Shown here: positions 37,679 to 52,308 of the stretch, piece by piece
How the letters are laid out: each line of letters starts with the position of its first letter
Numbering within the stretch: the first letter of the stretch is position 1
Assembly: GCA_951394045.1 (NCBI GenBank)
Contig: OX595986.1
Span: 1,674,001-1,738,000, forward strand
Length of the DNA stretch: 64,000 nt
Source: Nitzschia sp. DOCU1
Taxonomy: Eukaryota > Bacillariophyta > Bacillariophyceae > Bacillariales > Bacillariaceae
Reading direction: 5' to 3'
The notes under the pieces: model-generated
The model's database searches: none
What the model was told of the DNA's origin: nothing
The model's input: only the letters and a program-made list of their open reading frames with translations
Position numbers and translations under genes: made by a program

Positions 37679-37948
37679 TATTGTAAATGAAATAGACTAC
37701 TGGGGTGCGATGATGGCATTGCCAACAACACCCAGAATGGCATTCATTCGAAGGATGAGGAGGATGTTGGAACAAGGGGCGCAAACTTGATTGGGTGTGG
37801 TTACACATGCGCGTGGGAGCCTGACGTTTCGGGTGGGGGAGTAGGCGGGGACGTACCGTTGGTATGATTGGGGTTGGGCACCCTCGACGCCGCAGTGGGT
37901 GCTTAGCCTGGGCGAAAGAAAACGTAGCGTGGATAAGGCGTGGGGTCC

Positions 37949-38054
37949 TGCATTCGTTGTGGCTCTGCCATGTGGAGGAGTCGAGGTAGTCGTGTAATGA
38001 CGGTTGTTGGACGTGGAAAAGACGGTTGTGCTGCATACGTTGTGGCTCTGCCAT
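37949..38054. repeat. Pair of 23-bp direct repeats just outside the transposon
   Basis: Bases 37949-37971 and 38032-38054 share 22 of 23 positions (core CGTTGTGGCTCTGCCAT), 83 bp apart. They lie immediately left of the proposed left end of the rolling-circle element at about 38071. They may be host tandem repeats or part of the element's terminus. Confidence 0.7.
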
Positions 38055-38141
38055 AATGCACGTCGACAACGTTAATGGAAGACTCCATTTACATAATGTT
38101 TATATTTGCTAGATTTAAAGAAACAACATATAAAGAGTGCC

Positions 38142-38158
38142 ACAACGCCCAGCGTTGT
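38142..38158. other. Short perfect hairpin at the left side of the transposon
   Basis: ACAACGC and GCGTTGT form a 7-bp stem with a 3-nt loop, ending at the stop codon of the large minus-strand gene. It may act in transcript 3' end formation or in transposon end recognition. Confidence 0.5.
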
Positions 38159-41100
38159 TAGTCTGATGCCGCCGGTTCCTTCCTGGTTGATTTGCCACTG
38201 TTGCGTGGTGATTTACGTTGGGGAGACCCACCGCCGTCTTGAGGCGTCTGTTGCACTGGCTTCTTCTTGTTTTTGGTGGTGGAGGCTGCGTTTGTCGTAT
38301 GTTTCCCTGCTCCTTTCTTGTGCCTCGCCGGAGCCTTGTCATTGTCCTCCGTTACCGATCCCTTCTCCTTGGTTTTGTTGGAAGACGTCGCGTCGGCGAC
38401 TTGTTTCGGAGAGGCTTTGTTCCCGGCCTGATTCGCTACCTTTCTTTTCTTTGCTGGCGGCTCGTTCGTAGCAGCAGAACTGTCCTCCGTTACCGATCCC
38501 TTCTCCTTGGTTTTGTTGGAAGACGTCGCGTCGGTGACTTGTTTCGGAGATGCTTTGTTCCCGGCCTGATTTGCTACCTTTCTTTTCTTTGCTGGCGGCT
38601 CGTTCGTAGCAGCAGAACTGGCGGTGGACTTTGCATTGTCGTCGAGGAGGGGGTGGTACAGCCTCCCTTCCTTGATGACAACCTCGGTAGCCTTTGCATT
38701 CTTTTCAGACAAGGCGGTAAGGGCGTGGTTGAAAACAGGAACGAAATGTTGCAACTGCGGTCCAAGTATCTTCGTCGCACCGCTGTCCTCACTTTGCAAC
38801 AATTGATTCACGGCAGAAAGGAGGCTTACGAAGACACCTGTGTTGATGCCTCCCGTCGATGCCAAATCGGTCGCAGACGATTCGCCCTTACTGTTTTGTG
38901 CCCTGGTGAGTTTCTCTTCGAAAACGACGATCACCTTCTCGTCGGGGTCTGTCGAAAGCTTATTCTCAATGAAAGCGGAAAGGGACAATCTCCTGTCATT
39001 GAATGCCAAGAGCTGATCGACGAGACTCATGAATCCGTCCATTCCTTTTTTGTTTGACAACCACGGCTTTCCCGTTTTTGGCTCCAACAAACGGAGGAGT
39101 TCGTCACCGAGATATTTCGGACTGTCGTCATCGTCGTTGTCACTCCCGGCACCGTCTGCTTCCTCCTCTGCAACTCTCCCAGTCTTGCCTGAATCAAGGA
39201 GCTCGTACGTTTCCCGCCCATACGCACAATCCTCATCAAACTTTCGAAGATAAAGGGCATAGAGGACACACAACGCGGATATATACCGGGCGGGGTAAGG
39301 ACCGTCTTCTGGACGCTTGATACCGTCAAGTTGTGCAACCAAAAACTACCGGATTGGTCGATAAGAAAGGACGGACAACGACATTGTAAGAAAGCAGCAA
39401 TCTTAATGGCATCTCCCATTAATAGCTCCTTACCTTCAGATCATAGTTCTCTTTTCGTTCTTGTACCATGATCCTCTTCTTAAGGTCTGCAGCCGTGGCT
39501 TCTTCTTCGCCTTTATGCAAAAAGGCATATTTATCGTAGTCAATCTTAGACAACTCAGCAATGAAGATCATCAGGAAACGAGCTTTGAAGTAATTGACGA
39601 GTTTGTGGCGTGGTTTCGCAGTCTGAATGCCTTTGTCTCTGATCTCGAAGTAATGCCTGACGATGTTGTCGATCGGCGTTATGACACTGTCATTCAACCA
39701 TTGAACACTCAGTAAATGCTGGACTTTCGGTTTCCCGAGAAAGTCGTGGAGCACCGAGAAACACTTCGTCGAAACGAGACTCGTCTTGACCAACCAAACT
39801 GCAACCCAGAGTTCCCGAAAAGACTGGTTGTGTTGTTTCTTGGTCGTTTCCATGCCCATGGTGTAGTAGGCCTTGGATCCGATATTCTCGATTTTCACAG
39901 CCATGGGGGCCGTCAACACCTTCTTGGCAAAGAGGCGATTACACCTAGCCAGGTCCGGAACAAATTGTTCTTCGGCTTCATTCTTCATCTTGTTGATCTT
40001 ATTCTCGTCCTTGACTTTACCCGACACCCCAACCCATGTGTACAGCCCGGTGATCAAGATTCCCAACATTTTTGACAGGTACATTCCAAACACTGTATTG
40101 TCCTTGTGCCCAAAGAAACACTCTTGACCTAGCAGCCAATAATCGCGATCATTGTTCAACCCTGAATAGCCATAAAGGGGGTCGTCCGCGATTTTTTCCA
40201 TGGTGTTTCGCAGTAGCTGCCTGAAGTCGTCGTGATAAGTGAGTGTACGAAACGTTTGCGTGTCGTAACTGTAGGTGTTACACTTTTCGATGTCATTCTG
40301 GACAATCGCACGATCTATTTTCGTGAGTGTGTATCTTCCCTGCCTCGTTTTGTCGTCGTAAGTGTATACAAGTCTCAAGGTCATGTCATCGACCAATGTC
40401 CCCGCTGACGGAAAGTCGATGGCCCTTCCATCTTCTACTCGCAGAGGAACGGGGTCTCTGCTTCCAAACCCTAGCATCGCGCGATTCAACAGGTAGGTTC
40501 TGTGGGTACCTTCTAACTGTGCCAAACGAAATGGCGTGATCATACGAAAGAACGCCGCGAAATGTCGAAAGGCTTGAACCGTGGTAGTGTCACCTTCACT
40601 CGTCTTTTCCTTGTAGCGGTAGTGGAACCCCATCTTCCCCAAAACGGCGTTTAAGTGACTGACGGTTGTCATGTCTTCTGCTCCAAAACGGTTCATCAGA
40701 AGCGGGAGATCAACGACATCGTCATAGGCTTTGATGCTTTGGTCGATTGGATGATAATGATACCCGAAGAATCCTGCAAGACCCCAGTAAACATCAAGGT
40801 CTGGCTTTTTAACCGTGACATTGGGTACATTGATACCAAAGTGAAACTTCGGATCCCCAGCACTATTCCAGGAAAATGTGACGGTGGAGCGCAAAGATAG
40901 CACTGCTTCCTTGAGTACTTTCGAAGCCGGGGCAAGGCAATACGGCATACTGACGACGACACCGTTTTGCAGGTACTGGTGGTTCGCCTCGGACGAACCC
41001 GTCAACAAATTCTCAACTCCGTCCTCTTCGAAAACTGTTTGGTCCGGACGCCGATGGTTGAAGGGTGGGGCTATGATCTCCCCACAGCCCAGGGGGTCCT

Positions 41101-41671
41101 GGTCCTGCAATAACCAAAAACAAAATGGCGAGAGTACAACGTGATGTTGTTCTCGGAAATTAAGAACCTCTTTTATTTTGAGGTCCTTAGCGTATTGGCG
41201 GTAGTCCGCTTGAGCCCCCGTCCAATCAAATATCTCGCGCATCTTTTTTGCATGCTTAAGATACAGTTGCATGTTGTTGTGCAAAAGCTTATGGAAGTCA
41301 TCTAGTGGAGATCAGGGTTAGGATTAAGTGTTGTCAAGAAGGAAGAGTGTAATTGTGTATGTCTTACCTCCAAGATACATTTCAACAGTATTAGTTTTGC
41401 CATATTCGACTTGTAGTTTACGTTGTTTCAAATACGATTTGATGGCGGTATGTGCGGTCCGATGCATATCTTCAACAGTATTACGTAATTGTTCTCTATC
41501 CTTTCTCTGGTCCTTTCCGTTGTTCTTCGGACTCGATTCCGCCACAAGTCCAGGGGCTGGCGACGCAGGAAGGGACGAGAACGCGGTAACGTCTGTGTCG
41601 AGAAGCGTGGCTTCGAACTCATCGGAGAAGAGGTGAGCTAAGAAGTCGAAGGTTATCTTGTCTTCCGCCAT
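38158..41671 (-). CDS. Transposon-borne 1,119-aa nuclear protein of unknown function
   Basis: Exons 41368-41671, 39434-41301 and 38158-39345 join in phases 1 and 0 (GTAAGA and GTAAGG donors, TAG acceptors). The start is the ATG at 41671 (MAEDKITF); the frame upstream is open only through a GTG. I recognise no domain. The central 620 aa look like a compact mixed alpha/beta fold rich in aromatic residues. The C-terminal 150 aa are basic and disordered, with two PPAKKRKV sequences matching a classical SV40-type nuclear localisation signal inside a 46-aa tandem repeat. Nuclear action with the transposase is an inference from position and these signals. It is head-to-head with the 439-aa gene. Confidence 0.7.
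38341..38616. repeat. 138-bp tandem duplication encoding NLS-containing repeats
   Basis: Two nearly identical 138-bp units in exon 3 of the large minus-strand transposon gene encode 46-aa repeats, each with PPAKKRKV and an NKTKEKGSVTED end. Only a few base differences separate them, so the duplication is recent. Confidence 0.85.
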
Positions 41672-42454
41672 GGTCGCCACGGTTTAGGACAAGTTGGCGA
41701 TGTTTGTCGTAGATCGAAAACAATGAGGATGCCAGAAAACGACACTATCTGCCGCTGTCGATGCAAAACGGAAGGTGATGGGAAATCTGCTCGAGACCAC
41801 GTAAAATGGGCGAGTAGGTCGAGCAGGGGAGGCCACGTCGATTTTTTTAATTAGAAATTGCCGCTGATGGAGCACGCCGGCCTCATTGGGGCACATGGTC
41901 AAATATTTCACGACTCAACGAAAAATTAAAACGACTAGTAGTTTTTGGACCCAGCCATTTTGTCGAAGCGAAATTTATGTACTTAGATGGATTGTCTAGG
42001 AAATTTCGCAAGATAAGGAATTTTATTTAGACAACAGGCAAAGCACTATTTTCTTCCGGACGATATTTTAGAACACCTACAGATCACACATACACCAACC
42101 TTTATTCCATATCCGAACGGACAGAAAACACATATCAGGAACGGGTTTCCTGTTGTTAATGGCCGGCTCCATTATCGTCGGGGGAAATATTTCGGTCCGA
42201 TAACAACATTTGAAGCCACATGTATTCTCCCCTATTCCCATGAGTTTCTGTCGCTGTTGGAACAATGTTCCTTGCAAACCAATATGGCTGATATTCTTGA
42301 ACGACGACAAAGATGTCGCTGTTCCGACTTCGTTTGTGGCCTGTTGGAGATTATATCGGCGGTGAAAATTGAAAATTTCAGTAAGCTTTTTGTGTCTAAT
42401 TTCGGAGGGACAATCCGACTTGTGTTGATTGTCTCATAAAAATAGTTTCACATC
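41672..42454. promoter_or_regulatory. Divergent promoter region inside the transposon
   Basis: A 783-bp non-coding stretch between the start codons of the 1,119-aa gene (minus) and the 439-aa gene (plus), AT-rich toward the plus-strand gene. I see no family repeat here apart from a TTAATGG word at about 42157. Confidence 0.45.
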
Positions 42455-43774
42455 ATGAACACTCGCAACAAGAGCACTCGTCACCCGTCCGAGGGTAAGG
42501 GTGGCTTGAAGAATAGTCGATCTGCAAGTCAAAAAGAAGGTAAGCAGTCCATGGCTAACGAAGATAAAGTAGACACCTTTGTGGCATGCGAAGACGGGAC
42601 GTCTTTCCTAACAGAAGAGCCTGTGGAGGTACAGGCAACTACAACCCATCATAGCTCCCCACCCTTCACTTGCATCAGAGTGAATGGGAAGATTACAGTT
42701 GTAAGTGATATATCTACACTACCATCACTTCTTGTCGAAGCAATGGGACAAGACGGCACAAACAAGGTTGAGGTGCTCAAACTTAACAGCGCCGAGTCAC
42801 TCATGAAGGCAATGGAAAGTTCCAACGTAGAAGAGAAAGAAAGCACACTCCTGGAAGACCATACGGTTGCGAGAGCGAACGGAAGTCCTCCCCTGGTCAC
42901 TCCTACGAAGCCCAGTAACGCAGAAACCGTTTCCAAAGGGAACGACCTGCCGGTACTCAAGCGCGCCGCAGCCCCTCATAACCCTTACGCAGCATCAGCA
43001 AAGCGAGCTCCGGGGAACGGCGGCAGAGAGGGGACATTCGAAACTGGGTCATTCGCCAAGAAAATGAGAGAAAACAGAAAGACATCTGGAATGGAAGCCA
43101 TGATTCATATCACAAAGGACGTCCCTGCGCTGTTCCCCGTTAAGATCGGGGTGCTCGACTTTGTAAACCCAGTCCAAAATTTCACCCATTGGCTGCATCG
43201 CGCTCCAAAATGGATTGCTGTTTTGAATATTTTCAAAGAGTCTGGCGAAAAAGGAATGGAGAAGATCAACCTGTTCTTGTCATATCTCGCCTCGGTACAA
43301 CTCCGAGACCCCGCAGGCGAGGACAAAGGCCACACTATGGTGACAAAGGGCAAAAACGGGCAACTCTCCTTGACGAGTGATGTATTCCTGTTTTGTTACC
43401 CTATGAATACCCGGACGGATGAACTCGTATCTTACGTACGAGAATCTTTTGGCCCGATCTTCAAAGACGAAGAAATACAGGGTATGTACTTTGAGGAATA
43501 CATGTCAACGAGCTCGAACGCGAATGCCGAGAAGATGCTCCAGGTCCCGGGTCCCGACAATGGAGACCAGATCGGGAAGTATTGGTCTCAACTACAAGGG
43601 TCTCTAGGTGAAAACTGCTCGATCATCACACACGAGTCACTTGACGATTTCCTCACCTCAGAGGGGATCGCGGACGCACTGAACACGTTCGCCGGAACCG
43701 ATCTGACCGAAGCATGTGTGAAAGCCAAGACGATCCCCGAAGGTCTGAAAATGTTTGTCTACGGTCGCGAATGA
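42455..43774 (+). CDS. Transposon-borne 439-aa protein of unknown function
   Basis: Single exon from an ATG at 42455. The first 190 residues are hydrophilic and probably disordered (basic start MNTRNKSTRH, Ser/Thr/Glu-rich middle). The C-terminal 240 residues look folded, beginning near DVPALFPVKIGVLDFVNP and containing FTHWLHRAPKWIAVLNIF and DVFLFCYPMNTRTDELV. I recognise no family. The stop lies only 138 bp before the RepHel start codon on the same strand, so the two genes may share transcription or be co-regulated. Its position next to the transposase suggests an accessory role, for example in DNA binding, but nothing in the sequence proves this. Confidence 0.65.
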   Translation: MNTRNKSTRHPSEGKGGLKNSRSASQKEGKQSMANEDKVDTFVACEDGTSFLTEEPVEVQATTTHHSSPPFTCIRVNGKITVVSDISTLPSLLVEAMGQDGTNKVEVLKLNSAESLMKAMESSNVEEKESTLLEDHTVARANGSPPLVTPTKPSNAETVSKGNDLPVLKRAAAPHNPYAASAKRAPGNGGREGTFETGSFAKKMRENRKTSGMEAMIHITKDVPALFPVKIGVLDFVNPVQNFTHWLHRAPKWIAVLNIFKESGEKGMEKINLFLSYLASVQLRDPAGEDKGHTMVTKGKNGQLSLTSDVFLFCYPMNTRTDELVSYVRESFGPIFKDEEIQGMYFEEYMSTSSNANAEKMLQVPGPDNGDQIGKYWSQLQGSLGENCSIITHESLDDFLTSEGIADALNTFAGTDLTEACVKAKTIPEGLKMFVYGRE

Positions 43775-43912
43775 GTCCAGATGGAATTCCTTGTGTGTCG
43801 TATGGTCGTAACTTTGTGATGTATTACACGGGATACACGGTACATGTAACTGTTAACTAATGATCGTTCATTTCATCGTCATATAGGTAAACGAAAAGCG
43901 CGAAACGCCATA

Positions 43913-46900
43913 ATGACGAAGGCAAAGAAGATAAAAACGGCGAAAAAGAACACCGAGAAGGGAACACAAACATCCATCGTGTAAGTGAAAAGACCGACGT
44001 TTTAATGGCTCAGCCCATTAACACGGTGCGGTTTGTGTCATTTATTGGAGAATGCCATTAACACTTAATCTTTGAACGCGCACAGTACCCCGAGAAAACA
44101 CCACGACGACAGGAACACACCCGTCATCTGTCGAGATGGCGTCGACCTTTACATGAACCACCCCCGTGCACACGATGCAAATCTTCGGTTCGAGCAATTG
44201 AACGCCTCGGTTGTCCATGTCCGTTGCCCTTGTTGCCGTATTGTGTCTACTAAGTTGAAACTTATCAACAAAAGGGGTGTGTGCAAACGATGCTCAGATA
44301 AGAAGGCTCGAAATGCCACATACATTCCACCTTGGCTTCCTACATGGCAAGACGAAGACAAGAAGACACATTATACGGTCCCGCAATGCCTAAAGGTTCT
44401 CCGCGAGGGCGAAAAGTTGCTCATTCAGCGTGTCTCCACATACGTTCCATTGCGGTTCATGAAAGGGGGTTCCCATGCAAGCAAAGGCCATGTGTGTTGT
44501 TTCCCGAAACAATTACAAGACTTTGTGACGGAGCTTCCGCGGAAAAAGGTCGAAGCCGTTAAGGTCATAAGGCGGTTTGTCGGCCCTGACAAAGAGATCG
44601 ACGAACGGACCTTTGCTATAAGAAAGACGGTCGTCCTGGATGCACTGCGATGGCTGAAGAGGTACCACCGACATTACAAAGACATCATTATCCAGGAAGC
44701 AAATCTTAGCTGGATGAATGGCGAAACAGAAGCCGAGCTTGACGTCGTGGTTGTCCAGAAGCAAAGTCCCTGTGACAGGAAAAGAGAGCAGGAGGCTACC
44801 GTCAATTTACGTGTACGACCAGAACCGGACGACAACGAATATCCGGCGTATGGTGTCGTCCGCTTCGACAGCGACAATCTTTTACCGAAAGCCAGGGATC
44901 AAGCAACCGTTGCCATGGTGAGAGACATGGAACAACGTGCATTGGATGCCACGTCGCGACTTAACATTGATAACAATGAACGCAATTCTCCTGTGCCAAA
45001 CGCAATGGAGTTCCCCGAGGTTGGAACTGAAGCCATCTCCGAATATGACGACGACTACAGGATTTTCTGTTGTGCGTTTCCCTGGCTATTCCCCGGCGGT
45101 GTCGGTGATTGGGGAGATATCCCTGAAACGGAAGACATGACCGTCGAAGAATGGGCTAAATATTTGCTTATGTACGAAGACGGGAGATTCGCACGTGACA
45201 AAATCTGGTGCTTTTATGCTCTCAACTATGTGCAACGCAAGAAGAACATGGAACAAGGCTCTTTCTTTGTGAGGACGTTTGCCGGAAGTGGTAGTCCAAA
45301 AACCATCGAAGACCTGCATAAGTTGATTGACGATGGCGACACTTCATGGATCGAAAAGATATCGTATTTTGGCAATATCGTTCGGGGTAGTGCCCCGTTT
45401 TGGCGTCAAAGACGAGAAGAAATCCAGTCTTGGATTTTGTACCACGTGTTAAATGGTAATGGCGCCCCTACCGTATTCGTTACACTGAGTTGCGCGGAGC
45501 ATTACTGGCCGGACGTTAAGCGTCTACTCCGGGAACGAAAAGGCTACGAGAAGGCCCATGACGGGTTAGCTACGGGAATCACAAAAGACGACGAAGATGA
45601 GGATGTCTCTGTGCACGAATATACGATTGTCATACAGGAATACTTTCAGATGAGGGTAAAACACTGGTTCGATACGGTGGGGAAAGACGTATTTAATGTG
45701 AAGCATTACTGGCTTCGATTCGAATTCGCGCCGGGAAGAGGTCAGATCCATGCTCACTGTCTCTTGATAACGGACAACCTGGGTGTCCAACAAAGGGCTT
45801 ATGACGCAATGAAGACGGTACTAGAAAATGACATTCAGGACGACATGGAGCTTGCGCGCGCCAAGGTATATCAGGAATGGACGGAAAACGACCTGTGTAT
45901 GACGGCATCTTTACCCAATGACTTCGAGAGGCCAGTGTCCTTACAAGGCAAACATCACCCGGCATCCAGGGTGCTATCTGAGGTGAAGGACATGAAACAA
46001 GATGCAGTTGACCTCATGTTGACGGTGCAAAACCATGTCTGCACGGACTATTGCATGCGCAAGAGAACAGTGTTGTAAGTGACGGCCTCGCTAGTAGATG
46101 ACTGCTGAATGTCGATAGTAACAACCCTCTAACACGTCGCAAAGCCGAAAGGACGAAACCAAGAAAAGCCGACAGCGCAGAGTATGCAGGAATGGATGCG
46201 GTGTCGAGAAGACCGCAGGCGCTTGCGACACCCCCGGTTTTCCCAAGAACCATCACGCCTGTATAAGCACTGCGGCGCACACAGGGTACAAGCGGTTCGA
46301 ATTGCCTCGACGTATTGCAAAGGAACGAATCAACACGAACCCGACCTCGATGGCTTTGATTCACGGATGGAGAGCTAACTGCGACGTCAAGATTCTACTG
46401 TTCGAAAGCGACCCGAAAAACCCTGACTCCGAAGATATCACCAAAGTGACCAATTATATTGTGTCATATGCTTCAAAAGGGGTGGAAACATTACAACACG
46501 AGCGTCAGCAACTACGGATGTTAATCCTTGCAACTGACGAAAAGACAGGTTGTGAACGTGACGTGGTTGCGTTGGCAAGAAGAATATTGAACAGATACGT
46601 CGGCGAAAGAGTCGTTTCGAAGCAGGAGTGTATGGTTCAGCTTCTCGGGCTTGACTTGTGGGTATGCAGCGAATCATTCCACAGAATTAGCCTGTCGGGC
46701 TACACAAAGATCGACAGTAGGGGGACAACAGGAATGAATCGAACGCTTCGTGACTACGCCTACAGGAAAAATGTACGTACAATTGTTAACGGGCGGTTCC
46801 TGACGTGCAACACAACGAATCTAACTTGTTAATGGACCACACCAAAAACATCACTACCAGCATCTTGGCATGTCTTTGATGACTTGGTTTCTTGCCGTGA

Positions 46901-49161
46901 GATCTAAAAAAGGGAATCGTACGATCATTCCGCATTTCCCGGGAAGAGGGGTTTCTTCTGTTTATCCCATCACAGATCACATGGCTAAAATGTTGCTTCT
47001 AATTTACAAACCATGGGACATTACCAGGCATCACGGCGACAGTGGACACCCCCACATGTTGCGGTCGTTCTTACAGTCTGCTGATTGTCCTGAGTCCTTG
47101 AAATATACATTCAAACGTGATCGATATCGTGCCACGATAAGGCAACAAGAACCAACCGACAAGCCCGATAACGAGACCCAGGACGTAAGAGAACCTGTCG
47201 ACGAAGCGATGCGAGAAGCAATCGATGCATTCTCGGTACTCCCGTCAAACCACGCCGTATCGTTGGTCCATGAATATCCATTCGAGTTTGGGTTCGAATA
47301 CGATTGGAGTATACCTAACTCTGGGTTCGAAATTGACATTCAGGTCGGCGCGACGTGGTTAATGCAGAGGATCGAGGAAGCAGAGAATGTGACAACGAAC
47401 GGCATTCGCTTGCCGACCAATCCCCGTAACGGGAACAAACCTTACGAGTTCGAAGAACTTAAGGGGCAACAACGAGACATTGCACTAGAAGTGATGCAGA
47501 AAATCAAGGAATGGACCGAGGTTGATTTGCAGTCAGACCTTACAGATTTCTGTCCGTTGCACCTAACGATCCGAGGGCAGGCGGGAAGTGGGAAAACAAC
47601 CTTGATCCATACGATAGTAACGATGGTCGTAAGTTTGTTCAGCACCAACGAAAGTGGGGTTGTTGTGTGTCCCTCAGGGTGCGCGGCATTCAACGCCGGA
47701 GGGAAAACACTACATGGCCGTTTCCATGTGAGCGTTCACAGCGTAAACAACAAGCTGGAACCTCCACAAAGAGCTTGGAACCGGATGATCAAGGAAAACG
47801 GGCGGATTGTCGTTTTAATCATGGACGAAAGGAGCATGACACCGGCAGATGTTTTGGGGTTTGTCGTGTCGTATCTTGTGTATACTGCACACAACGGCAA
47901 GAACCAAAATGCAAGAGGTGGGTGGGGTGGGATACCCGTGGTGTTGTTCTTTGGGGATGACGGTCAGTTACCCCCGATTGGAATTGGGTCTTTCGATTTT
48001 AAAACAAGTTCACGAGAGAATTGGAACGGTGGGCATTATTTAGGTATGCAAACCTTCCTCGAAATGGCAACTGACGTGCGTACTCTGAACGTTAATTACC
48101 GTCAGAACACCAACCAAGACACATATAGACAGATCCTGGACGAAGCCTACACGGGGATTGTGACAGATACCGGTGCCGAAAGGCTTATGGAGCTTCATCT
48201 TGATAACCCGCGTTTTACAGACGAAGATCGTACAACAATCCGTGATCGGTCAATTCATGTCTTCGCGAATAAAGAACCAATGGACAAACACAATAATCGA
48301 CAACTGTTTCTCGCTACGTCGGCACTGAACCCAGTGGCATGTATAGCTGCCTCGGATGACGCACGGAACAAAAGGCACTTGTCGGAGTGCGGACTTGTTA
48401 AATCATTGACAATCGCAAGGAATTCACGTGTATGTCTCCAAGGCCGTAATCTTCGGCCAGAATGGGGCTTATACAACAATGCGTCGGGGACGGTGATAGA
48501 TTTGGTATTCAAAGAAGGCGAATCCCCCAACAGCAAAAGTCTCCCGGTGTATGTGCTTGTCGATTTTCCTTCGTATACGGGAAAGGCGTTCATTGATTCA
48601 CAGCCGACGTATGTGCCTCTGGTTCCAGTCACTGTTCATTGCCAGAAAGGATGCTGCGCGAGAACACAGTTGCCACTTCGACTTGCATATGGCCAGACCA
48701 TACACACCTTCCAAGGACTTACAGTCGGTACAGACGACAACCATACGACCTACAAAACACCGTCGATCGTAATCTATCCTGGTTCGTTGTCCTTCGAAGG
48801 AAAAAACCCGGGCCTCTTCTATTCGGCCTGTTCTAGAGGTACTACGATCGGGACAGCTGAAGACCCGCTATCATCGTCGATCTACTTTCAAGGACAATCT
48901 ATGTCAAAAGAACGAGTCGCCGACATGACACGGACAAAGAAGGGTGAAGTTTTTAAACGGATAATCAAAAGAAAACAATGGACGGAGTTACTCGACAGCC
49001 ACAACAGGCGGGTCATTTTCAGCGAGAAAGAAGAGACTGAGATCATCGAATGGATGAGGACAACGAAGCACACTCCTTCGTCGCTGGATGCAATCATCTC
49101 GAAATACAACGTGGCAAATACAAAGTTACTGACACGAACAGATGAATCAACGAACTATTAG
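43913..49161 (+). CDS. RepHel: Helitron HUH endonuclease and PIF1-type helicase
   Basis: Four exons, 43913-43980, 44086-46074, 46145-46772 and 46861-49161, give 1,661 aa; phases agree at all junctions. The third acceptor could instead lie at 46168, shortening the protein by 8 aa. Modules: basic N-terminus; zinc ribbon (CPCC...CKRC) with a DUF6570-like block (GEKLLIQRVSTYVPL) about 55-150; Helitron-like N region; HUH motif GRGQIHAHCLL near 573-583; HVCTDYC zinc motif near 675; the two-tyrosine motif TNYIVSYASKG near 789-799; PIF1 helicase with Walker A GQAGSGKTTL near 1133, DERSM near 1217, GDDGQLPPIG, VNYRQ, TFQGLTVG and FYSACSRGTT near 1552. The HUH tyrosines nick DNA and stay bound; the helicase unwinds for rolling-circle transposition. 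No inactivating change is visible. Confidence 0.92.
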
Positions 49162-49206
49162 ACAACTGTTCGGTCCAGATTTATTCAGTATTTGCGAATT
49201 TGCAAC

Positions 49207-49288
49207 TTAATGGAAGACGCAAATAACATACAATTGGATATCAGCGTAATGAAACTTTTTGGAAGATACCAATAACACACAATTGGAT
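49207..49288 (+). repeat. Two tandem copies of the transposon's dispersed repeat
   Basis: 49207-49239 and 49256-49288 share 27 of 33 positions (core GGAAGA...AATAACA..ACAATTGGAT). They lie between the convergent RepHel and 222-aa genes. The first copy shares TTAATGGAAGAC and a following ACATA at the same spacing with 38072-38095 at the left end. Confidence 0.8.
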
Positions 49289-49956
49289 CAGACATCAAAG
49301 CCGACTCCGTGTGGACCGTCCATCGCACATGTCATGTCGTATTCTACGGCGGGGCCGCCTCTGAGTTCACGAAGATGGTCTCTCTTGTACCCAATTGCCC
49401 TGATATGGAAACGACCCAACCACTCTTTCATCTCTTTCGATTCGGCATTGCGGATAGCAAGCTCCCATCCTTCGATATCACGGTCCCAAACCTCGGACCA
49501 GTAGAAGGTCTCGCTCACGAATGCGGTGCCATCATCGCGGAAGGATATGAGTTTGTATTGTCTTGCTCTCTCGTACAGCTGGGGTACAACGGCAAGCGCA
49601 TCAAAGGGGTTCTCGTGGTTATCGCTTAGCCATTCTGCCACGAGTGCGAGGTAACGGACGACCTGTTGATACACGAACGCGTCGAATGCGTGGTATTTCG
49701 TCTTCCGAAGATCCTCGAATTCATCTCGGAACTGTCGGAAGTGGCTCTCTTTGTTTTCCCTGAGCCTTTGAGTGTTCCACTTGCAATGAGGAAACAGGTC
49801 CATTGCATCAAAAAACAAGAACGTATGTTCCCAGTATTGCAGACGGTTTTCCAGAAAATGGGTCACAAAACCGAGGATTCTTTCGTTCCGTCCATCGTCG
49901 TTTTCGTTTCGAGTGTCATCGTCTTCGACGCTCGAGATGGATACGGTGGAAGACAT
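49288..49956 (-). CDS. Transposon-borne 222-aa protein, paralogue of its neighbour
   Basis: Single exon from an ATG at 49956. It shares with the 387-aa protein encoded just to the right the blocks WEHTFLFFDAMDLF, a Tyr-rich helix (YQQVVRYLALV) and KLISFRDDGTAFVSETFYWSEVW, so the two are diverged copies of one family. No known domain, signal peptide or membrane helix is seen. It lacks the C-terminal extension of its paralogue. It is convergent with RepHel, and its stop codon touches a copy of the dispersed repeat. Confidence 0.65.
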   Translation of the reverse strand: MSSTVSISSVEDDDTRNENDDGRNERILGFVTHFLENRLQYWEHTFLFFDAMDLFPHCKWNTQRLRENKESHFRQFRDEFEDLRKTKYHAFDAFVYQQVVRYLALVAEWLSDNHENPFDALAVVPQLYERARQYKLISFRDDGTAFVSETFYWSEVWDRDIEGWELAIRNAESKEMKEWLGRFHIRAIGYKRDHLRELRGGPAVEYDMTCAMDGPHGVGFDV

Positions 49957-50227
49957 GATGATATGTGATTATTTCATTCGCAATGTCGATCGTCAATGTG
50001 CAGTTGGTGCCGGTCGCAAATGGGCAAGGGAAGCGTTGAGTCGTTCACAAAATAAAAATCAACCGTTGGATTAAGAATACAAACACACGAGGCGAACGAC
50101 AGGGAGAATCGTCGAGAACAAAATGAGACACGAACTCGCAGAAAAGACAAAAAAGATTGTCGTTGGGGGGTTCCTAAGTATTTATAATCCTGGCGACAAA
50201 ATGACACAACGAATGGCCACGAATCAT

Positions 50228-50253
50228 AAATGTTATTGGTGTCTTACAAAAAC
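50228..50253 (-). repeat. Inverted copy of the dispersed repeat, left of the 387-aa gene
   Basis: Matches 51596-51621 at 24 of 26 positions in the same orientation and matches the plus-oriented copies when reverse-complemented (shared ACCAATAACA). Together with the other copy it brackets the 387-aa gene. Confidence 0.8.
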
Positions 50254-50272
50254 AGGCGGACCCTTTTTCCAA

Positions 50273-51436
50273 CTAAATGACGACAGGCGTCCTGTTGCCT
50301 TGACGGCGTTCGCTATACTTCATGCAATATTCGTTGCATGCATGAAGATTGAGTGCTTCTACCACACGGGCTATCTCGTTTTCCAAGAAGTCCATATTTG
50401 TGTCTGTGGAAGCCAGGACAGGCAAACAAACGGCCGGGTCGAATACATCGCGGAGCGGACCCGGAATTTCATCGGCATGGGATGAGCGGCGGGCCCGTTC
50501 TTCTCTCCGATGCATGTTCAATACGGGCGCCAGACGCTGTGAGTAATCGTACCAATCAACGCCAACCTCACGAATGGGCGCAAGTGTATCGGTGTTTCGT
50601 TGAAGACTCGCTCGTTGGATCAAGGATGGATTGTATGCAGGGACCCTAAGTTGTGGACCTGGTAGTTCAGGGTTGTTTATGATTGGGAACCGAAGGGGGA
50701 AGTCCCTGGCACGAGGCAAAGCAAAGTTCCAACGCTCTTCCCGATTCGAACCAATTGGAATGATCACCCTTGGCAACACCCACACGCCCGAGCGACAGAC
50801 AGGAAAGTTGTAAGCAACGGGCAGACCACCGTTGGTATCGGACTCGTAAGCGACAGGGAGGCCGTTCTCTCTCTCCGCTTCACTGTATCCGAACGGGCCA
50901 CCTGCCCGTCTCGACAAGATCCCGAACCATTTCCCAGTGGTGGGGGTCGGATTCGCAACAACTCGACCAGACCACATTTCGTCGAACCAAACAACGTTCC
51001 AATAGAAACTGTTTTTCTTGAGAACGGATCCGTCGGCATCAAACTTAATGAGTTTCAGCACAGATGCCCGGCGGTGGTACTTCCTCATCTTTGAACGAGT
51101 GATCCGTACATGCGCATGGTCCACGACGACGGCGGTAAGGTAAGAGTACAACATGGAAGTGTATTGTTGGTACATCTTCCGGTTAAATACTTGTGGACGA
51201 GCAAGAACAGGGTGCCACCACATTTCAATCAGTTCGTCAAGAGCCTCACAGTGTTTCATTTTAACCTCGTTGTGGTCGGGGAAGGTGGACGCGAACATAG
51301 CCATGGCATCGAAGAAGAGCAACTGGTGCTCCCATTGTTGGAGCATGGAAGATTCCCATTCCTCTTCGGTAAAAACGGTCATCATGGGTAACAACATGGT
51401 TAACAGGATCCCAAGATTTGAGCACAATTTCGACAT
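50273..51436 (-). CDS. Transposon-borne 387-aa protein with Helitron-like Cys tail
   Basis: Start taken at the ATG at 51436; the frame runs further upstream only to a GTG. The first half is paralogous to the 222-aa neighbour (WEHQLLFFDAMAMF; KLIKFDADGSVLKKNSFYWNVVW). The second half is Pro/Arg-rich. The last 25 residues contain LHACNEYCMKY, which resembles the HVCTDYCMRKR zinc motif of the RepHel protein encoded nearby, yet the frame stops before the rest of that module. A hydrophobic N-terminus (LGILLTMLLPMM) may be a signal sequence or the result of a missed upstream exon. The function is unknown. Confidence 0.6.
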   Translation of the reverse strand: MSKLCSNLGILLTMLLPMMTVFTEEEWESSMLQQWEHQLLFFDAMAMFASTFPDHNEVKMKHCEALDELIEMWWHPVLARPQVFNRKMYQQYTSMLYSYLTAVVVDHAHVRITRSKMRKYHRRASVLKLIKFDADGSVLKKNSFYWNVVWFDEMWSGRVVANPTPTTGKWFGILSRRAGGPFGYSEAERENGLPVAYESDTNGGLPVAYNFPVCRSGVWVLPRVIIPIGSNREERWNFALPRARDFPLRFPIINNPELPGPQLRVPAYNPSLIQRASLQRNTDTLAPIREVGVDWYDYSQRLAPVLNMHRREERARRSSHADEIPGPLRDVFDPAVCLPVLASTDTNMDFLENEIARVVEALNLHACNEYCMKYSERRQGNRTPVVI

Positions 51437-51595
51437 TATGACACCCTCATGACGAGACAAAGAAGGAGAGAGCACCTTGCGGGATTTAGCTGAAATAATA
51501 TTAGTCGACCGTTAGAAGCGAATATTTCGACTCTTTTTCTTCCTGGGAGCCAATTCGCAATATCAGGTTTCACAGTGAAACAGACGCAAATTCCA

Positions 51596-51621
51596 AAATG
51601 TTATTGGTGTCATACAATAAC
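51596..51621 (-). repeat. Right-end copy of the dispersed repeat
   Basis: Its reverse complement matches the left-end copy (38071-38095) at 19 of 25 positions, giving candidate subterminal inverted repeats of the transposon. A GC-rich hairpin at 51662-51680 (6-bp CGCGCG stem, 7-nt loop) follows 41 nt farther out. Confidence 0.7.
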
Positions 51622-52308
51622 TGGCAATCAGACAATAGTCGACTACTTCGACCGTAGCATCCGCGCGACCGGAGCGCGCGAGTCGCAAATCTCTTTAAAC
51701 AACGAGGACATTTAGGGAAACAAACGTATGTGGAGTGTCCCAACAAAATCCGACTCTCCTAAACAAGATAATGCGGAAAATCGTTATCATTCAAAACAAT
51801 TCATTACTGGACAAAAATTTCGCAAAAAAAAGTGGCCGCAGGCTCTTAAGATTCCGTTTTATACAAGGATGTATGTCTCCCAATTCACAATTCGACGTCG
51901 TCCCACCAAATACGGATTTCCACGTCTCGTGATCGCACACACATAGACGACCTTCGGGGATTAACCCACTGCGGCTCCATAATCCGATTCAACACGAGTC
52001 CAGTTCCACGACTCATTTACGACTGACTCAGTTTCTCAAAGCTCGAACACGACGATGGCTCTCCAACGCGAGCTGGAAGGGAGGCTCCACGTGTCGTAGA
52101 TGCATGATGGTGAGATTTTGGCTTACTGCTTTTTCCGATGAGAGGCAGAGACCTTTGCTACAAAGTGACTTACAAACTGATAGGCGATCTGCTAAAACGT
52201 CAAGAAGCGTTGAGGACAGGCTGTGGATTGTTGGTGACTGCAGAATATCGTACTTGCACTTTCGAATACCGTCAGAGGCCCGACCTCGACAACCAGCTTT
52301 TGGTGAAG
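51622..52308. other. Right edge of the transposon and upstream region of cysteinyl-tRNA synthetase
   Basis: No gene is called. The GC hairpin at 51662-51680 and the AT-rich stretch after it could be the element's true end. The frame of the tRNA synthetase is open back to an ATG at 52138, but that extension has no targeting or domain character. Confidence 0.4.

Follow-up and report, generated by a model that had tools for sequence, protein, structure and literature searches.

Helitrons are eukaryotic transposons that move by rolling-circle transposition through their transposase, RepHel, in which a Rep domain (HUH motif, two tyrosines) and a Pif1-type helicase are joined in one protein. The mechanism is established (PMC6431247), and our definitions of Helitron1, Helitron2 and Helentron follow two further papers (PMC5148889; PMC4067079). 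Helitron1, the canonical form, has 5'-TC and 3'-CTRR ends, a palindrome of 16-20 nucleotides (nt) about 11 nt from the 3' end and a target between A and T that is not duplicated. Helitron2 has asymmetric terminal inverted repeats, hairpins at both ends, no endonuclease and a target between TTTT and T or C. Helentrons are large elements with multiple open reading frames (ORFs), an AP endonuclease fused to RepHel, RPA or OTU accessory proteins, insertion within TT, short non-autonomous partners and subterminal inverted repeats, which in mite HINEs lie 2-4 nt inside the 5' end and 38-60 nt inside the 3' end (PMC4067079; PMC5148889). One FoHeli subgroup has an additional ORF that lies upstream of the transposase gene in the opposite orientation (PMC5148889), and proto-Helentron-Pi of Phytophthora infestans is described as an element of ~14 kb, with a RepHel lacking the endonuclease, insertion between A and T without duplication, hypothetical ORFs of 218 and 266 amino acids (aa) beside RepHel, a SET-domain gene and 5'TT/3'CTAG ends (PMC4067079). 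Extra hypothetical ORFs beside RepHel are therefore on record, and the kind of element described here is a known one. The present element lies in a 64,000-nt stretch (the window) of contig OX595986.1 of the diatom Nitzschia sp. DOCU1 (C2:1674001-1738000 in the 52.1-Mb assembly); it carries a RepHel gene and four further genes, which we call A to D, and is very probably a 14.2-kb Helitron-like transposon of the rolling-circle type, recently mobile and apparently autonomous. The diatom origin proposed by an earlier, sequence-only reading of the stretch is supported by 18 matches in the assembly (best E 8e-181) to the silicon-transporter family PF03842, which we take to be a diatom marker, with one of 14 control genomes also giving a match below the cut-off.

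Transposase, ends and target site

The sequence-only reading had described an intact four-exon RepHel gene tightly surrounded on both strands by four other intact frames of 1,119, 439, 222 and 387 aa, and both descriptions stand: all five genes are free of internal stops and 81% of the element is coding. The RepHel model, with GT-AG introns and a product of 1,661 aa, is the top-scoring of 52 splice combinations (the 14 listed give 1,643-1,665 aa); splice sites of all genes are predictions. PF14214 (E 1.1e-21) and PIF1 (E 1.3e-11) were matched in separate exons by Pfam and are united by the splice model. The stretches that we take to be the HUH-type motif (HAH), the two-tyrosine motif YxxxYxxK (YIVSYASK) and Walker A are intact, and the matches of RepHel in the structure database are Pif1-type (best E 9.6e-12). 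An endonuclease domain was sought in RepHel with Pfam and with further domain and structure searches, and none was found. PF14214 has 26 matches genome-wide. A tree confined to ten RepHel sequences of this genome, with no reference Helitron proteins, sets the window locus (WIN), C1a, C3a (two copies), C6 and C1b apart from the pairs C5 with C27 and C2b with C5b; C3b, a near-identical copy of WIN, was kept outside the tree. A RepHel fragment also lies ~19 kb upstream of the window (C2:1655054-1655479).

The boundaries of the element (Table 1) are set by CAAGGGG (37773) and CTCCA (51979) and lie some 300 and 360 bp outside the 38071-51621 given by the sequence-only reading; they follow from a second full-length copy, from shared ends and from an empty site. 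The second copy, on C3 (RepHel locus C3b), matches window positions 37768-51980 in a single blastn alignment of 14,213 bp with 20 substitutions, 19 within the element and one outside, and no indels, and the full-length pair is 99.87% identical. When the two ends were used as queries against the genome, 39 and 26 matches were listed, among them many left/right pairs 0.6-8 kb apart, and short non-autonomous derivatives with the same ends are present. After spurious ends had been discarded (left match L054, right match L053; L063 has no left match), 16 left and 15 right ends were counted, those of the window and C3 copies included; sister families supplied further ends, a spurious left match in C27 being discarded there. 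CAAGG opens all 16 and CTCCA closes all 15, once in the form CTCGA; all 20 left ends compared (the 16 plus C1b, C6, C27 and C3a) have A or T ahead of A-CAAG, and the 15 right ends with their flank read CCAT, save one that reads CGAT. The 3'-terminal 15-mer, CCACTGCGGCTCCAT, has 34 exact occurrences in the genome versus none for its reversed control. The comparison of occupied and empty sites, which the sequence-only reading had proposed as a way to define the ends, did so: three copies of a long terminal repeat (LTR)-like sequence read TGTTGGA-AT-AATCCG or AATACG, and the window reads TGTTGGA-A[CAAGG...CTCCA]T-AATCCG. Since the repeat copies have an uninterrupted AT where the window holds the element, insertion was between A and T, without duplication, and the element spans 37773-51979. 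The window copy sits in the opening bases of the repeat (51980-52031, beside the insertion, served as the empty-site reference), and the same stretch occurs at at least 16 other genomic places; its TG start and its copies paired ~5-6 kb apart suggest that it is an LTR.

A 12-bp asymmetric inverted repeat, GCCGCAGTGGGT / ACCCACTGCGGC, had been missed by the sequence-only reading, as had the end sequences. The 5' arm has counterparts at a similar position in C6, in C1b and in a short copy near C27; the one in C3a differs by a single base. The oppositely oriented repeats at 38071 and 51621 that had been read as edges are instead two members of an internal palindrome family (see below). The terminal sequences fold no better than shuffled ones (z 0.36 and -0.01), the 3' end offering only a 3-bp stem 12 nt from the end (z -0.01).

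Rep and Pif1-type helicase in one protein, and insertion between A and T without target duplication (one insertion compared with three repeat copies), agree with the broad definition of a Helitron, and the RepHel motifs, ends and target bear out the identification as a RepHel rolling-circle transposon. The proposed Helentron-like affiliation does not hold: with no endonuclease found and a target between A and T, the element classifies by its sequence as Helitron-like, not as a Helentron. It resembles canonical Helitrons in transposase and target, but has CAAGG and CTCCA ends in place of TC and CTRR, five genes and an asymmetric inverted repeat. The last feature and the lack of an endonuclease are shared with Helitron2, from which it differs in target and possibly in its termini, where no significant hairpin was found. 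To proto-Helentron-Pi, likened here by description only, it corresponds in its size of ~14 kb, missing endonuclease, target and extra hypothetical ORFs, but not in its ends or in the SET-domain gene. On the known Helitron mechanism, RepHel would nick at the CAAGG end, its Pif1-type helicase would peel off one strand, and RepHel would stop at CTCCA, with the inverted repeat as a mark of both ends; the freed strand would then be joined into a site between A and T.

Table 1. Features of the element, in window coordinates, and the cyclin genes of its sister families
Feature	Position	Strand	Remarks
Whole element, 14,207 bp	37773..51979	+	CAAGGGGCGC...CTGCGGCTCCA; inserted between A (37772) and T (51980)
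5' arm, asymmetric inverted repeat	37889..37900	+	GCCGCAGTGGGT, 116 nt inside 5' end
3' arm, asymmetric inverted repeat	51964..51975	-	ACCCACTGCGGC on +, 4 nt from 3' end
RepHel, 1,661 aa	43913..49161	+	exons 43913-43980, 44086-46074, 46145-46772, 46861-49161; DUF6570, Helitron_like_N and PIF1
Gene A, 1,119 aa	38158..41671	-	exons 41671-41368, 41301-39434, 39345-38158; C-terminal 46-aa tandem repeat with PPAKKRK motifs
Gene B, 439 aa	42455..43774	+	intact frame; same position and orientation in sister families, 40-44% identical
Gene C, 222 aa	49288..49956	-	six homologues, each 2.8-3.0 kb upstream of a RepHel gene in another group
Gene D, 387 aa	50273..51436	-	N-terminal half paralogous to gene C
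Palindrome 1	38072..38091	+	3' of gene A; left edge repeat of the sequence-only reading
Palindrome 2	39403..39422	+	gene A intron 2; exact TTAATGG-N6-CCATTAA
Palindrome 3	42156..42175	+	between A and B
Palindrome 4	44002..44021	+	RepHel intron 1; exact
Palindrome 5	44042..44061	+	RepHel intron 1
Palindrome 6	46829..46848	+	RepHel intron 3; 2 mismatches
Palindrome 7	49207..49226	+	3' of RepHel; 2 mismatches
Palindrome 8	49256..49275	+	between RepHel and gene C; 3 mismatches; related copy 50231-50252
Palindrome 9	51601..51620	+	upstream of gene D; 3 mismatches; right edge repeat of the sequence-only reading
Mitotic-type cyclin, sister families	L012:4750-5346 and L020:2841-3797	- and +	syntenic, antisense to RepHel

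Genes accompanying RepHel

Genes A and B are kept in place across three diverged families of the element. The group to which the window element belongs comprises six RepHel loci (WIN, C3b, C1a, C3a, C6 and C1b); A is present at all six, truncated at C1b, and B at five, being absent from C1b, which is ~8 kb short relative to C6. Between WIN and its sisters the frames of RepHel are 51-63% identical, those of A 31-37% (25% for the C1b remnant) and those of B 40-44%; the RepHel frames of C1a and C6 are 68-75% identical to each other. Gene A has 13 genome matches at 10 loci, four of which lack a PF14214 match (C24, C8 and C12, each with an in-frame stop, and C15, in two pieces), and gene B has eight matches at seven loci, including fragments at C9 (with one stop) and C11. 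All full-length, stop-free A or B matches listed adjoin a RepHel, the remaining ones listed being pieces (C15, C11, C9, C1b) or stop-bearing (C24, C8, C12). The conserved accessory set that had been proposed thus stands for A and B but not for C and D, which occur beside only two of the six loci. RepHel copies standing without such company, the observation named as contrary to a set, are likewise not the case for A and B inside the group; outside it they are, since 19 of the 26 PF14214 matches have neither A nor B among the matches listed nearby, only the best candidates having been scored.

Nor do the four genes form one set, as C recurs beside six RepHel genes of another group and the sister families carry a cyclin and a further gene, E, both lacking in this family. 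Gene C has 17 genome matches, namely WIN, C3b, a stop-bearing copy at C4, six homologues beside RepHel genes of a distant group and eight copies or pieces of its paralogue D, which is found in the WIN family and partly at C4, C8 and C9. The six homologues (26-31% identical) share the strand of the RepHel genes at C7, C5, C1, C10, C6 and C12 and precede them by 2.8-3.0 kb; C5 is the one member of this second group in the tree, the rest having been grouped by their similar PF14214 matches. In WIN, unlike the second group, gene C is downstream of and antisense to RepHel, and a gene C profile had no match in the C1a, C3a, C6, C1b, C2b, C5 and C27 segments. From the differing position and orientation, gene C appears to have been exchanged between RepHel groups or captured separately.

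C1a and C6 share the gene order A(-), E(+), cyclin(-), B(+), RepHel(+), and in the WIN family the gap between A and B is merely 0.8 kb, with no cyclin or gene E matched there. The two cyclin frames match Cyclin_N (1.5e-40 and 9.5e-32), are 44% identical to each other and have cyclin B1 as their closest match in the PDB; C1a retains an intact MRAIL stretch, which is altered in C6. A cyclin search of the genome gave 12 matches. Three are open frames within elements (C6, C1a, C3a); two, at C5:1135548 and C9:434890, are relatives interrupted by stops, the latter 2 kb from a B fragment; three are smaller pieces; and the last four, at 24-27%, are distant and probably represent host cyclins.

The splice model of gene A is one of three combinations. 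Its exon 2 has a ratio of non-synonymous to synonymous rates (dN/dS) of 0.16 against the C24 copy, from 59 synonymous and 38 non-synonymous differences over 619 codons with one codon skipped, which points to purifying selection. The ratio of 0.34 for gene C against the C4 copy comes from too few differences to rely on (8 synonymous, 11 non-synonymous); both comparison copies carry a stop, and the C3 copy of gene D has a premature one. No Pfam family reached its cut-off in exons 2 and 3 of A or in B, C and D, and NCBIfam matched none in A exon 2, B, C, D, or the cyclin and gene E of C6. The structure model of gene C was unusable (pLDDT 41), and Foldseek gave 35 matches to it at E <= 10 and none at E <= 0.001; a PDB sequence search returned nothing for B and two matches at E 1.1-1.2 for C. 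No relatives were found in viral contigs with A and RepHel exon 2, or in prokaryote genome contigs with B. Among public proteins, A (residues 1-960; the best 7,988 candidates by shared words were scored) has two matches, one 95% identical over 64% of the query and one 36%; B has one besides itself (88%) and C two besides the window's own D (97% and 60%). For the 95, 88 and 97% matches the longest contig is in each case 11,843 bp, which makes it probable that a single record carries A, B and C together.

Three further observations were made. A 138-bp tandem duplication (38343-38618) in the last exon of gene A doubles a 46-aa stretch with a PPAKKRK motif. At C3:2787565-2808896 (L068, L014-L016) a sister element contains an internal 5.7-kb head-to-tail duplication with a second RepHel, the duplicate being 99.9% identical. 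At C8:1729436-1736533, ~7 kb between two element-type ends hold pieces of A, C-like and D-like genes and no RepHel match; this is possibly a fourth family (A 48% identical, one stop).

Dispersed palindromes and a possible role for A and B

The WIN family has a palindrome, TTAATGG-N6-CCATTAA, with nine sites in the element and two elsewhere in the window at up to three mismatches; these 11 compare with 2.4 expected (sd 1.58, maximum 7 in 100 shuffles). All nine lie outside exons, for which the chance would be ~3e-7 if the sites were independent. C1a has the palindrome TTTCGTTA-N3-TAACGAAA and C6 has CGACCTTTTGC-N7-GCAAAAGGTCG. The best class of palindrome with 7-mer arms has 4 sites in WIN, 6 in C1a (counted over 14.5 of ~15.6 kb) and 11 in C6, versus at most 2 in 30 Markov shuffles of each. 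With one mismatch allowed, the window has 5 sites of the WIN motif and the C3b segment 6; the C1a motif has 7 sites in C1a and 10 in C3a, and the C6 motif 12 in C6 and one in C1b. No full palindrome of one family was found in the long element of another among the ten segments searched at one mismatch, and the only cross-family match there was a C1a site near C27, within a 757-bp non-autonomous copy. Full sites listed lie outside the frames counted as coding in 3 of 3 cases in C1a and 8 of 10 in C6, and each of the ten short WIN-type copies examined keeps one WIN-type site, at three mismatches. Arms are conserved within a family and spacers are mostly variable. Site-specific recombination, which the layout of arms and spacer might bring to mind, is disfavoured by the variation of the spacers from site to site.

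Two other segments are of note. The 757-bp non-autonomous copy at C27:43674-44430 (L023, L024) has a C6-like left end and an exact C1a-type palindrome, a combination that suggests exchange between families, and the C5 segment, with a second-group RepHel and a C-type gene upstream, has 19 scattered TTTACGCA/TGCGTAAA sites.

The palindromes differ wholly between families while retaining their scattered layout, and divergence is faster in A and B than in RepHel, a pattern that fits a co-changing pair of protein and site. We tentatively propose that A and/or B are element-specific DNA-binding proteins that recognise their family's own dispersed palindromes and could thereby control the expression, replication or copy number of the element. 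C and D would be optional helpers, with C exchanged between RepHel groups, and the cyclin of the sister families would couple the element to host DNA replication. More broadly, and as a conjecture, this diatom clade may be organised like small selfish replicons, in which family-specific, fast-diverging A and/or B would read private palindromes in nearly all gene gaps and in introns for self-recognition and control, and in two families a cyclin would push the host towards DNA replication.

Competing explanations and significance

Large size, extra ORFs and a subterminal inverted repeat are what a true Helentron would also have, yet that label was rejected and is very improbable, given the missing endonuclease, the target between A and T, inverted-repeat arms placed differently from those of mite HINEs (116 nt inside the 5' end, 4 nt inside the 3' end), and the lack of any RPA or OTU match in the scanned parts of A to D. 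Two nested or fused elements, with C and D brought by another transposon inserted beside RepHel, would account for the C homologues that accompany another RepHel group in a different orientation and for the failure to find gene C in the sister segments; this too is improbable, as the whole 14.2 kb is one unit at two places, the second copy has no indels, and no second pair of ends of the same type was found inside the element, other end types not having been sought. Ordinary gene capture, with A to D as host passengers that have no role in the element, draws on a capacity known for Helitrons (PMC6431247), on the patchy distribution of C and D and on the plainly cellular origin of the sister-family cyclin. 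We nevertheless consider it unlikely, as A and B keep their order, orientation and open frames in three families whose RepHel exons are just 51-75% identical, exon 2 of A has its low dN/dS, and every stop-free full-length A or B match listed adjoins a RepHel.

A stronger competitor, which leaves the transposon itself untouched, is that the palindromes are RNA hairpins, acting in 3'-end formation or stability, or tiny palindromic insertions tolerated off coding sequence. Introns and positions 3' of genes do hold sites, folding of the 38060-38100 hairpin is better than that of most shuffles (z -2.0), and some C6 spacers and flanks are alike; yet sites also lie upstream of genes, the two-site stretch 43975-44090 folds no better than shuffles (z -0.88), the sequence differs per family with conserved arms and mostly variable spacers, and short copies without genes keep one site. 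We regard this explanation as a serious possibility, though short of probable.

Several observations weigh against our own account, in which a Helitron-like element is served by A and/or B at its palindromes. The element is known here from sequence alone, not from transcripts or movement. The empty site is known for one insertion, that of the window copy, with a left match of just 7 bp, apparently since the repeat starts there, and flank searches for empty sites of the C16 and C3 insertions returned occupied halves only. The link of A or B to the palindromes is a correlation; no DNA-binding domain was matched in B or in exons 2 and 3 of A (Pfam; NCBIfam for B and A exon 2), and the structure model of A exon 2, tried with three sequences, was unusable (mean pLDDT 31). 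At one mismatch, half-sites of C1a and C6 are found in the segments of other families, the 9-letter C1a half-site 6 and 10 times on the two strands of the window. The site retained in the ten short copies is degenerate, and these share ancestry and so are not ten independent events. Of the C6 sites listed, two of ten fall inside frames counted as coding (the introns of C6 being unresolved), and some may stem from duplication, as their spacers or flanks are alike.

Helitrons are usually described as one transposase with passengers, and here two proteins, A and B, have accompanied it across deeply diverged families, each family has dispersed palindromes of its own, and a cyclin is present in two of them. 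Among the papers listed in literature searches, titles and abstract openings showed no conserved accessory sets in diatom Helitrons, no transposon-borne cyclin and no family-specific dispersed palindromes, which is weak evidence of absence. With its 99.87% identical full-length pair, the element is a candidate for observing Helitron transposition in an alga as it happens. Should A or B bind the palindromes, a eukaryotic rolling-circle transposon would be encoding a regulatory layer of its own, and the genome would then offer three matched pairs of protein and site in which specificity could be tested.

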